64,000 nt of DNA from assembly GCA_005889135.1 (NCBI GenBank), contig VBEK01000143.1, positions 1 through 64,000 on the forward strand, written 5' to 3'. The position numbers and the translations under genes are program-made. This DNA comes from Chloroflexota bacterium. Its GTDB lineage: Bacteria; Chloroflexota; Dormibacteria; Dormibacterales; Dormibacteraceae. Of the stretch, positions 8,384-39,583 are shown piece by piece (the first letter of the stretch is position 1; each line of letters starts with the position of its first letter). The notes beneath the pieces are model-generated. The model saw only the letters and a program-made list of their open reading frames with translations, was not told where the DNA came from and did not search any database.

Positions 8384-9781
8384 GTGACCACGCCACGGCC
8401 TCGCACCATCGCCGAGCTTCGCGCGACCGGGCACAGGCGCGAGACCGTCAAGCAGGAGATGCGCCGCAACCTGCTCGCCCGCCTGCGCGCCGGTGAGCCT
8501 CTTCTGCCCGGCATCGTCGGCTACGACGAAACCGTCCTGCCGCAGCTCTCCAACGCGGTGATCTCGGGGCACGACATCATTCTTCTCGGCGAGCGCGGCC
8601 AGGCGAAGAGCCGGATCATGCGCTCGCTGGTCAGCCTCCTCGACGAGTCGGTGCCCGCCATCGCCGGATGCGAGATCAACGACCATCCCTACGACCCAAT
8701 CTGCCGTCGCTGCCTTGACCTGGTGGCAAGGGAAGGCGATGCGGTCGAGGTCGCGTGGATCAAGCGCGACCACCGCTACGGCGAGAAGCTGGCGACACCC
8801 GACATCTCGATCGCCGACCTGATCGGCGAGGTCGATCCGATCAAGGTCGCAGAGGGCCGCTACCTGGCGGACGAGCTCACCATCCACTACGGCCTGTTGC
8901 CGCGCACCAACCGCGGCATCTTCGGCATCAACGAGCTCCCCGACCTCGCGGAGCGCATCCAGGTCGGGCTGCTCAACATCATGGAAGAGAAGGACGTCCA
9001 GATCCGCGGCTACCGAGTGCGTCTTCCCCTCGACCTCTTTGTCATCGCCAGCGCCAACCCCGAGGACTACACCTCACGCGGCCGCATCATCACACCGCTC
9101 AAGGACCGCTTCGGCTCGCAGGTGCGCACGCACTACCCGCTGAGCATCAGCGAGGAGATGCAGATCATGGAGGCGGAGCGGCATTCCGTCCCCGAGGACT
9201 TCGAGCTGATCTTCCCGACCTTTATGAAGGAGATCGTCGCCGAGCTGACGCACCTCGCCCGCCGCAGCCCGCACATCTCACAGTCGTCGGGCGTCTCCGT
9301 GCGCATGTCCATCGCCAACGTCGAGAACCTGGCGAGCAACGCGGTGCGCCGCGCCGCGCGCCTGGGCGAAGGGCTGGCGGTGCCGCGCATCACCGACCTC
9401 GCGTTTCTCGCCTCTTCGACCGCGGGCCGCGTCGAGATCGAGGCCCTGGACGAAGGGAAAGAGGAGCAGGTGCTCGCCCGCCTCGAGCGGGGCGCCATCA
9501 GCTCCGTGTTCAGCCGCCACTTCTCGGCGTCGCAGTTCGAAGGCGTGGTCTCACGGTTCGAGGAGGGCAACATGCTCGAGGTCGGCGAGGGCATCCCCGC
9601 CCGCGCCTACACGCGGGCGATCGGCGAAGTGCCGGAGCTGGCGACGGCGCTGAAGCGGCTGGGGCTTGCGGACCGGCCGGAGGTCCGCGCCTCGGTCATC
9701 GAGTTCATCCTCGAGGGCCTGCACCTGAACAAGCGGCTGAACAAAGACGAAGTCGAAGGGCGAGCCATCTACCGGCGGTAG
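8384..9781 (+). CDS. MoxR/magnesium chelatase-like AAA+ ATPase
   Basis: 465 residues. The Walker A motif is degenerate but present (LLGERGQAKS, residues 67-76), the Walker B region is GIFGINELPDL, and sensor 1 is FVIASANPEDYTSRGRI. The order and the DRFG after it match the chelatase/MoxR AAA+ clade. A Cys motif near residues 110-123 (CEINDHPYDPICRRC) could bind a metal. These ATPases usually act with a von Willebrand A-domain partner, which is not adjacent here. GTG start, leaderless. Confidence 0.82.
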   Translation: MTTPRPRTIAELRATGHRRETVKQEMRRNLLARLRAGEPLLPGIVGYDETVLPQLSNAVISGHDIILLGERGQAKSRIMRSLVSLLDESVPAIAGCEINDHPYDPICRRCLDLVAREGDAVEVAWIKRDHRYGEKLATPDISIADLIGEVDPIKVAEGRYLADELTIHYGLLPRTNRGIFGINELPDLAERIQVGLLNIMEEKDVQIRGYRVRLPLDLFVIASANPEDYTSRGRIITPLKDRFGSQVRTHYPLSISEEMQIMEAERHSVPEDFELIFPTFMKEIVAELTHLARRSPHISQSSGVSVRMSIANVENLASNAVRRAARLGEGLAVPRITDLAFLASSTAGRVEIEALDEGKEEQVLARLERGAISSVFSRHFSASQFEGVVSRFEEGNMLEVGEGIPARAYTRAIGEVPELATALKRLGLADRPEVRASVIEFILEGLHLNKRLNKDEVEGRAIYRR

Positions 9782-9820: not shown

Positions 9821-9965
9821 TCGATAGTCGCGACTAACGGGGGTTGCGGAGGTGCAGCACCATCGATAGTCGCGACTAACGAGGGTGGCGGAGGCGCTGA
9901 AGCGTGGATAGTCGCGACTAACGCGGGTTGCGGAGGCGCTGAAGCACGGATAGTCGTGACTAACC
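9821..9965. repeat. 42-bp tandem array with TAGTCGCGACTA palindrome, locus 1
   Basis: Four units. The palindromic core TAGTCGCGACTA starts at 9825, 9867, 9909 and (one base changed, TAGTCGTGACTA) at 9951, a constant 42-base period. Each core is followed by AACG and a GGGTTGCGGAGG-type linker. The same family occurs at 38491-38632. It lies between convergent genes (AAA+ and the zinc-ribbon protein). The period equals 14 codons and both strands stay open, but nothing suggests translation. Confidence 0.9.
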
Positions 9966-9985: not shown

Positions 9986-10183
9986 CTACTTCTGGACGGC
10001 GTAAACCCACACGAACCCGGCGACCAGCAGCACGATGCCCAGGAAGAAGACGAGCTCGACGCGAATCGCAAGCCTCACCAACCGGCGCGCCCGGCGCGTG
10101 CGCGCGCCGCACCTCTCGCAGTACGCCGCGTTCGCCACCAGCTCCGCGCCGCAGTTGTCGCACGCGACCTGGAAGTGTTCCAC
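9986..10183 (-). CDS. small zinc-ribbon membrane protein
   Basis: 65 residues. An N-terminal zinc ribbon with two CxxC knuckles (CDNCGAELVANAAYCERCG, residues 8-26) is followed by a basic stretch and one transmembrane helix (about 43-63). This is the common layout of short membrane-tethered zinc-ribbon proteins; the function is unknown. It ends about 20 bases from the first repeat array. Confidence 0.75.
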   Translation of the reverse strand: MEHFQVACDNCGAELVANAAYCERCGARTRRARRLVRLAIRVELVFFLGIVLLVAGFVWVYAVQK

Positions 10184-38199: not shown

Positions 38200-38493
38200 A
38201 TGGGCGTCGACGTGCGCCGGCCGAAGCCGCTCGACACGCACCCGGGGGAAGAGATCCTCGCGTGGGCGCGGTCCCAGCTCGAGATTGCGCGCTCGATCCT
38301 CGACAACCCCGGCGGCGGCCTGCTGTTCGCGACCCAGACCATCGGCCAGGTGCGTTCCGGTCTCGCCGAGCGCGACGAGGCGCGCTGGAGTGAGGTCGTC
38401 GGGCTGCTTGGGCGCGCCGAGGACGCCGCCGTGCACCGCGAGTTCGTGACCGCGCGCAAGCTCCTGGACGACGCCGCCGCGGGGATCGGTTAG
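38200..38493 (+). CDS. hypothetical protein
   Basis: 97 residues from ATG 38200; a TTG at 38179 inside the GNAT gene would add seven. Mostly helical (EEILAWARSQLEIARSIL, FVTARKLLDDAAAG). No family recognised. Last gene of the aldolase operon; its stop touches the second 42-bp repeat array. Confidence 0.6.
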   Translation: MGVDVRRPKPLDTHPGEEILAWARSQLEIARSILDNPGGGLLFATQTIGQVRSGLAERDEARWSEVVGLLGRAEDAAVHREFVTARKLLDDAAAGIG

Positions 38494-38632
38494 ACCGCGA
38501 CTGACCGGCATGTTGGAGGCGCCAAGCCCTCGATAGTCGCGACTAACGCGCATGCCGCCGGCGCTAAACCCTCGATAGTCGCGACTAACGCGCATGTTGG
38601 CGGCGCTAAACCCTCGATAGTCGCGACTATCA
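38491..38632. repeat. 42-bp tandem array with TAGTCGCGACTA palindrome, locus 2
   Basis: Three perfect cores at 38534, 38576 and 38618 (period 42) and a degenerate unit at the left (TAGACCGCGACTGA), whose TAG is the stop of the preceding gene. Linkers read AACGCGCATG...GGCGGCGCTAAACCCTC, related to locus 1. Also between convergent genes (the hypothetical protein and the LLM oxidoreductase). Confidence 0.9.
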
Positions 38633-38638
38633 GACCCC

Positions 38639-39583
38639 TTAGGAGGCCGCGGCCTCCAGCGTCGCCTCGAATCCCTTCGCGCCCTCGTGCCCTGAGAACG
38701 GACCGACGCCGGGCAGCGTGACCCCCGCCTCGCGGTAGCGCCGGACCGCGTCGCGCACCCGCTCCTCGTCGCCGATCCCGGCCAGCTCGTCCAGCACGCG
38801 CTCGCCGACCTTCTCGGCGTCGAGCTCGTCCTTCAGGCCGCTCGCGTCCATCATCTTTCGGTAGTAGGGAAGGCCCGCGTACCGCGCCACCGTCTTGCGG
38901 AAGACTTCGTTGGCCGCGGCGCGGTCGGTTGTGAGGCAGACCGGCACCGCGGAGACCACCTCGAAGCCGTCCATCGACCTGCCCACCTTCTGCCGCCCCC
39001 GGGCGATCGTCGGCACCACCACGTCGCGCACGTACGCGGGTGTGCACATCCAGAGCACGACCCCGTCTGCGATCTCGCCCGCGAGCTCCAGCATGCGCGG
39101 GTTGAGGGCCGAGATCATGATCGGCAGGTCGGCCCGGTGCGGCCCGGAGTAGGCGCTGCGCGCGGTGAAGTGGCGGCCGTCGAAGCCGGCTCCGCCGTCG
39201 CGAAGCGTCGTGCGCACGATGGTCAGGTACTCGCGCATCGCCTCGACCGGGTCCTCGAGCTTCAGGCCCCACATCCCTTCGACGGTGACCTTGTGGCTGA
39301 TTCCGATGCCAAGGATGAACCGTCCGTGGGAGACCTCGTCGAGGGTCGCCGCCATCTGCGCCATCGCGGTCGGGTGGCGCGTGTAGATCGGCAGCACGCC
39401 GGTGCCGAGCTTGACGCGCGCAGTGGCGTGGGCGTAGGCCGCGAGCACGAGCGCGGCGTCGCGCGCGTCGGGCATCTGCGTCGTCCACACCGATTCGTAG
39501 CCGAGCTTCTCCGCGGCCTTGGCACGCGCGATCGATTCGTCGAGGGTCCGGACGGCGGGGTTGAAGGCGGCAAGCCTGGTCAT
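38639..39583 (-). CDS. LLM class, probable F420-dependent oxidoreductase
   Basis: 314 residues. Luciferase-like TIM barrel: AEKLGYESVWTTQMPDARD, VKLGTGVLPIYTRHPTAMAQMAATLDEVSHGRFILGIG and LPIMISALNPRMLELAGEIADG. The cofactor (F420 or FMN) is inferred. ATG 39583, with TAGATT 8 bases upstream, suggests a leaderless mRNA; the upstream in-frame ATG is less likely. Confidence 0.88.
   Translation of the reverse strand: MTRLAAFNPAVRTLDESIARAKAAEKLGYESVWTTQMPDARDAALVLAAYAHATARVKLGTGVLPIYTRHPTAMAQMAATLDEVSHGRFILGIGISHKVTVEGMWGLKLEDPVEAMREYLTIVRTTLRDGGAGFDGRHFTARSAYSGPHRADLPIMISALNPRMLELAGEIADGVVLWMCTPAYVRDVVVPTIARGRQKVGRSMDGFEVVSAVPVCLTTDRAAANEVFRKTVARYAGLPYYRKMMDASGLKDELDAEKVGERVLDELAGIGDEERVRDAVRRYREAGVTLPGVGPFSGHEGAKGFEATLEAAAS

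Follow-up and report, generated by a model that had tools for sequence, protein, structure and literature searches.

What is represented by four palindromes repeated in tandem, at steps of exactly 42 bp, between two convergent genes of a soil Chloroflexota? The array is located in the left part of the window (the whole analysed stretch of 64 000 nt). A preliminary description had proposed that it is a site for cooperative protein binding. The steps between the four cores were confirmed as 42, 42 and 42 bp, the last core having one mismatch (TAGTCGTGACTA versus TAGTCGCGACTA), and so was the presence of a second array of the same family 28.7 kb away (Table 1). When up to two mismatches to the core were allowed, nine matches were observed in the window with 1.7 expected; none of 100 shuffles reached nine. 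The gene to the left of array 1, read as coding for a MoxR/Mg-chelatase-like ATPase, has orthologs with 88–94% identity in most other genomes of the genus; the gene to the right codes for a small zinc-ribbon membrane protein and is kept as a neighbour in relatives. In array 2 the degenerate first unit provides the upstream gene with its stop codon, the TAG at 38491–38493.

Table 1. Palindromic units and flanking genes in the window, with the full element found elsewhere in the same genome
Feature	Coordinates	Strand	Remarks
Array 1, left gene	8384..9781	+	465 aa; stop 41 bp before array
Array 1, unit 1	9823..9838	+	GATAGTCGCGACTAAC; exact core TAGTCGCGACTA, start 9825
Array 1, unit 2	9865..9880	+	GATAGTCGCGACTAAC; exact core TAGTCGCGACTA, start 9867
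Array 1, unit 3	9907..9922	+	GATAGTCGCGACTAAC; exact core TAGTCGCGACTA, start 9909
Array 1, unit 4	9949..9964	+	GATAGTCGTGACTAAC, one mismatch; core TAGTCGTGACTA, start 9951
Array 1, right gene (convergent)	9986..10183	-	stop 21 bp after array
Array 2, left gene	38200..38493	+	short conserved protein
Array 2, degenerate first unit	38490..38505	+	
Array 2, unit	38532..38547	+	GATAGTCGCGACTAAC; core start 38534
Array 2, unit	38574..38589	+	GATAGTCGCGACTAAC; core start 38576
Array 2, last unit	38616..38631	+	GATAGTCGCGACTATC, fully palindromic; core start 38618
Array 2, right gene (convergent)	38639..39583	-	luciferase-like oxidoreductase (by reading)
Full parent element (L068)	G000:C200:5503-6647		array, AbiEi-DUF559 nuclease gene, array

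The whole assembly (2.95 Mb, 221 contigs) contains 242 exact TAGTCGCGACTA cores, making up about 75 arrays, while the reversed control pattern does not occur at all. For array statistics of this genome we used 915 kb of stretches around the listed core matches, with 232 exact cores in 74 arrays. The core-to-core step was 42 bp in 144 of 158 cases, 41 or 43 bp in 10 and 84 bp in 4; an 84-bp step is a lost unit. With 242 cores against none for the control and 144 of 158 steps being exactly 42 bp, random spacing of cores at the frequency expected from composition does not hold. The arrays are tandem, mostly with three to four units and up to seven, and the unit consensus is GATAGTCSSGACTAWC. The conserved length of the unit should be corrected from 12 to 16 bp (GATAGTCGCGACTAWC). 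The remaining 26 bp form a variable spacer with a weak dyad about CGAGGGTTTTGGGGCNCGAAAACCCCG; its axis is situated exactly midway between cores, so that A/T-rich steps recur at roughly 10, 10, 10 and 12 bp.

Gene calls, made by our own codon-usage script, placed 73 of the 74 arrays in intergenic regions. Among 71 arrays with two flanking genes, 32 were found at convergent junctions (background 14%, p = 3e-10) and 4 at divergent ones. The median distance to the array was 21 bp for facing gene 3′ ends and 70 bp for facing 5′ ends; for 74 of 111 facing 3′ ends the stop codon was at most 30 bp away. Genome-wide, 13 stop codons were located inside arrays, the TAG of the core being often used.

Comparison with relatives (draft MAGs of soil Chloroflexi) showed that the family is almost wholly limited to one genus. 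Among 110 genomes of the class, the pattern GATAGTCNNGACTAWC was found in 14 of the 17 that belong to this genus; outside it, only a single genome, of a sister genus, had the pattern, at one site. A class-wide distribution was therefore rejected. The core centre is mostly TAGTC-CG-GACTA in other species and TAGTC-GC-GACTA in the window's genome. The 86 arrays collected in other species were 74 doublets, 10 triplets and 2 singles, with 86 of 94 spacings equal to 42 bp; the copy number differed several-fold between species. In 67 doublets of relatives the inner core bases were T/T (28), T/A (20) and A/A (19) and never A/T, hence no more than one of the two inner half-sites departs from the palindrome, and the arrays have polarity.

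For 26 arrays of relatives the flanking genes stand side by side in our stretches of the window's genome, and for 22 of them (14 distinct arrays) there is an array in the same junction, although this is not an unbiased rate as the stretches were chosen around arrays. At shared junctions the cores and the spacing are kept, the spacers are unrelated and the core centre is usually switched. Shared junctions indicate that some copies are old and vertically inherited. In the relatives that were read, the convergent junction orthologous to that of array 1 had no array, apart from a single CG core in G007, and array 2 was not found in any of the 13 relatives found; both arrays are, thus, recent gains of this lineage. 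Of 160 spacers in the window's genome, 56 agree with a spacer from elsewhere in the genome at 22 or more of the 26 positions (null 0.6), and spacers are more alike within a locus (18.5 versus 11.3 of 26). Therefore, units were copied between loci and duplicated in place. The array-1 junction is a hot spot for different repeat families: downstream of the ortholog of the left gene in other species (L099, L103, L107, L106 and L109) we saw unrelated palindromic repeats of CTCCCCGCTCGCCGGGGAGG type and CCCCATCCATGGGGAAG type, and in L102 (G014) a pair of ACCGCTGGATCCAGCGAG 42 bp apart is situated just past the junction.

Core pairs situated about 1.05 kb apart led us to a gene between them, with a protein product of ~300 aa. 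The full element (~1.1 kb) consists of a palindrome-26 bp-palindrome end, ~80 bp, the gene and a second palindrome-26 bp-palindrome end; the predicted gene product joins a DNA-binding domain resembling AbiEi to a nuclease of Vsr/EDxHD type (DUF559). Most genomes with the element have one clear copy of it, and many gene 3′ ends throughout the genus carry the 58-bp two-palindrome end by itself. A genus-wide search identified 13 genes in 12 genomes whose identity to the copy of G009 was about 56% or higher (clade A). All 13 have core pairs 42–43 bp apart on every side present, at about -135/-93 on the left and -29/+13 on the right of the gene; such cores were seen beside none of 17 other DUF559 homologs. 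The Fisher value for this linkage, 8e-9, ignores the kinship of the 13 genes, which occupy four chromosomal sites (beside proS, aconitase, the MerR-rsfS junction and an enoyl-CoA hydratase gene). As related genes at only four sites they do not represent 13 independent events, and their distribution points to largely vertical inheritance and several relocations. The centre of the gene-side cores is the one prevailing in the genome, GC in G000 and G009 and CG in the other clade-A loci read. The assembly of G008 (95% complete) has about 60 copies and no detected clade-A gene, so the gene is not needed for copies to persist.

All 20 proteins scanned matched PF04480 (DUF559), and PADLOC models of AbiEi matched the element protein with an E-value of 1e-15. 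The AlphaFold2 model built on the alignment had pLDDT 90 and pTM 0.84. In Foldseek searches its N-terminal part was similar to the AbiEi antitoxin (6y8q, E-value 3e-5) and to Rv2827c (1zel), and the C-terminal part to the catalytic domain of I-Bth0305I (3r3p, TM-score 0.79); 3hrl was a match by sequence. Residues E191, D224, E235, D237 and H241 are invariant in the nuclease domain. The predicted catalytic fold together with the conserved acidic residues is what one would expect of an EDxHD/Vsr-type nuclease.

Palindromes of other types are present near DUF559 genes outside clade A. With the pair distance left free from 25 to 60 bp, the best palindrome pair was 41–43 bp apart in 32 of 70 flanks; a flat distribution would give 5.8, and among 400 random windows from the same loci, which include real flanks, 49 also had such a pair. 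Examples are CCATTCGGGCACGAATGG, GCGAGTGCCGGCACTCGC, GCGTTAGGCGCCTAACGC and CCGATTGGTACCAATCGG. The palindromes change in parallel with the protein tree, the types being GCCGGC centre, TTGG(NN)CCAA type, CATTCGGGCACGAATG and TAGTC(SS)GACTA, and the two proteins with GC-centre cores make a pair with support 0.98, apart from the proteins with CG-centre cores. Next to this, after masking of the TAGTC core, three data sets were scanned for pairs of 18-mers that are repeated and palindrome-like. The distance of 42 bp had the highest count in each set: 10 pairs versus a mean of 0.70 for the other distances, 13 versus 0.34 and 4 versus 0.27, the last in 400 kb of G005 at relaxed thresholds; the strict scan yielded 0 pairs there. 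The masked scan includes gene-less pairs of GCGAGCGCCGGCACTCGC type in the window's genome, where a DUF559 gene (L288) has flanking palindromes similar to this type. Dispersed pairs of TTTTGCGCAAAA, 41–43 bp apart, were also seen in the window's genome (L046 9367, L048 6968 and L055 1435) and probably make another repeat family. One genome, G005, gave up to 15 matches of DUF559/AbiEi-like type, of which many were fragments or had frameshifts.

Several DUF559 genes had no 42-bp pair that we could find; these include one whole supported subclade (L248, L253, L286, L287, L300 and L304), in which such pairs were not detectable. The same was true for two actinobacterial homologs with 29% identity (Tsukamurella and Arthrobacter). 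In another family of the class an element-type protein was present in 1 of 18 genomes, and no clear 42-bp pair was found there.

Returning to the proposed cooperative binding site, the geometry fits well: species differ in the 26-bp spacers but keep a step of exactly 42 bp, the core hardly varies, RNA-type covariation is not seen, and unrelated palindromes beside related DNA-binding proteins repeat the same spacing. The proposal does not capture the function of the site: the arrays are situated at gene 3′ ends, not promoters, and match the ends of the DUF559-nuclease element, which favours the end of a mobile element over a regulatory site. The putative binder would be the nuclease of the element itself, not a cellular regulator.

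We thus consider the arrays to be, with a probability of about 0.7, non-autonomous dispersed copies of the ends of the DUF559-nuclease element, resembling REPINs and their RAYTs with an unrelated enzyme in place of the RAYT. We propose that each palindrome would be bound by a dimer of the nuclease protein and that two such dimers, spaced by four helical turns, would interact; the functional unit would then need two palindromes at 42 bp. The nuclease might cut or nick DNA at such pairs, with subsequent repair copying the unit to new places and tandem duplication adding further units, and the position at gene ends may mostly reflect where insertions do least harm. Copying could also proceed by ordinary gene conversion, with the protein being only a self-repressor.

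Among other explanations, it seems improbable that a cellular protein organizing the chromosome or acting in transcription (nucleoid-associated, ParB/Noc-like or a roadblock terminator) binds the arrays as sites functional for the host. A near-invariant core with exact 42-bp spacing, the convergent bias, the closeness to gene 3′ ends and the 14 arrays common to other species at the same gene junction would all agree with such a role; still, nearly every orthologous junction in the genus lacks the two arrays of the window, the copy number differs several-fold between species, and neither the linkage of cores to the DUF559 gene nor the parallel families would be explained. Even less probable is that the palindromes are only autoregulatory operators of AbiEi-like genes, with dispersed copies being passive duplications. 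It is known that AbiEi proteins bind pairs of inverted repeats and thereby repress themselves (PMC7319586), and one core pair is indeed upstream of the gene; however, the second pair is at the 3′ end, where an operator is not needed, and about 75 arrays have no gene.

We give an equally low chance to the arrays acting at RNA level, as long hairpins of transcribed palindromes that terminate transcription or protect the 3′ ends of mRNAs, similarly to REP/BIME. Location at gene ends is in line with this function, as is the folding of the array RNA, much stronger than in shuffles (z = -6.1), but strong folding is expected because the cores are palindromes. Spacer halves pair less than permuted halves, with no compensatory change found, and permuting the outer flanks did not lower their pairing; an RNA hairpin with covariation was therefore rejected. 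Also, mixed GC/CG pairs (7 of 67) break the helix between cores 1 and 2 while keeping each DNA palindrome, and neither a T-run terminator nor an Rfam family at cut-off was found.

Some other identities were rejected. The arrays are not REPs driven by RAYT, as the RAYT domain (Y1_Tnp, PF01797) was found in none of the 17 genomes of the genus, with positive controls matched. A CRISPR array was rejected because the spacers agree on a consensus column by column, recur at different loci and belong to about 75 short dispersed arrays. A phage origin was dismissed, as the doublet was not found in viral contigs. A MITE of a DDE or IS element does not belong with these rejected identities; when target-site duplications were looked for, the flanks of doublets were complementary, not direct repeats, and we identified neither a target-site duplication nor a clean excision, no close empty site being at hand for comparison.

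Several known systems share features with the element. The sopC centromere of plasmid F has 12 tandem 43-bp repeats with an inverted repeat, close to our arrays in period and in the palindrome-per-unit layout; our arrays, however, are dispersed at about 75 places and linked to a nuclease rather than to a partition operon. The predicted N-terminal fold and the PADLOC matches relate the element protein to AbiEi/Rv2827c, the antitoxin of AbiE type IV toxin-antitoxin systems, and paired inverted repeats are a feature of AbiEi binding. Unlike AbiE, the protein has a C-terminal nuclease domain, candidate binding units are present on both sides of the gene as well as dispersed, and no adjacent gene of the AbiEii toxin (DUF1814) was found; the neighbours, read from translations, look like unrelated housekeeping genes, e.g. 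rsfS, proS and aconitase. With the EDxHD homing endonuclease I-Bth0305I the protein shares the predicted C-terminal catalytic fold; its gene, though, is not in an intron or intein and is flanked by palindrome pairs.

The closest parallel is REPIN/RAYT, in which REP doublets are associated with an IS200-like tyrosine transposase (PMC3116915, PMC3733652). Common features are two palindromic units with a less conserved spacer of fixed length, dispersal in extragenic space adjoining gene 3′ ends, a parent gene between its own units, with each distinct gene in single copy, and the coexistence in a genome of several distinct genes that each have a repeat of their own. The prevalence of doublets with diverged spacers in other species and the intergenic location of nearly all arrays here agree with dispersal of REPIN type, and all 13 clade-A genes are flanked as a REPIN mobilizer would be, but the enzyme, predicted to combine AbiEi-like and EDxHD/Vsr-like parts, is different. 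The units are near-perfect palindromes at a fixed 42 bp, versus imperfect inverted REPs. Without a RAYT in the genus, a GTAG or CGTC tag at the ends of the unit consensus or covariation for a hairpin, the arrays are not a member of the REPIN/RAYT family.

In open-access text we found no paper linking DUF559 to repeats and none describing the core sequence, apart from one unrelated chance match. The combination of palindrome arrays and nuclease appears to be a class of bacterial mobile repeat not described before; what is new here is the enzyme and the fixed 42-bp geometry. We lean, with less assurance than for the arrays themselves, towards a broader view: a whole superfamily of mobile palindrome-pair elements, so far unrecognised, would have proteins with DUF559 and AbiEi-like domains as its enzymes. 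Palindrome and enzyme would co-evolve within each lineage, under a fixed 42-bp dimer-of-dimers geometry common to all, and bacterial gene ends would be seeded with short repeats in the absence of a RAYT. REP-type repeats are widespread, and RAYT is the only mobilizing enzyme family that we found described for them; the DUF559 nuclease is a second, unrelated candidate, which would also give a candidate role to a large 'domain of unknown function'. The elements offer a natural set of protein–palindrome pairs in which recognition evolves while the 42-bp geometry stays fixed, and the spread of such repeats becomes directly testable with one small protein.
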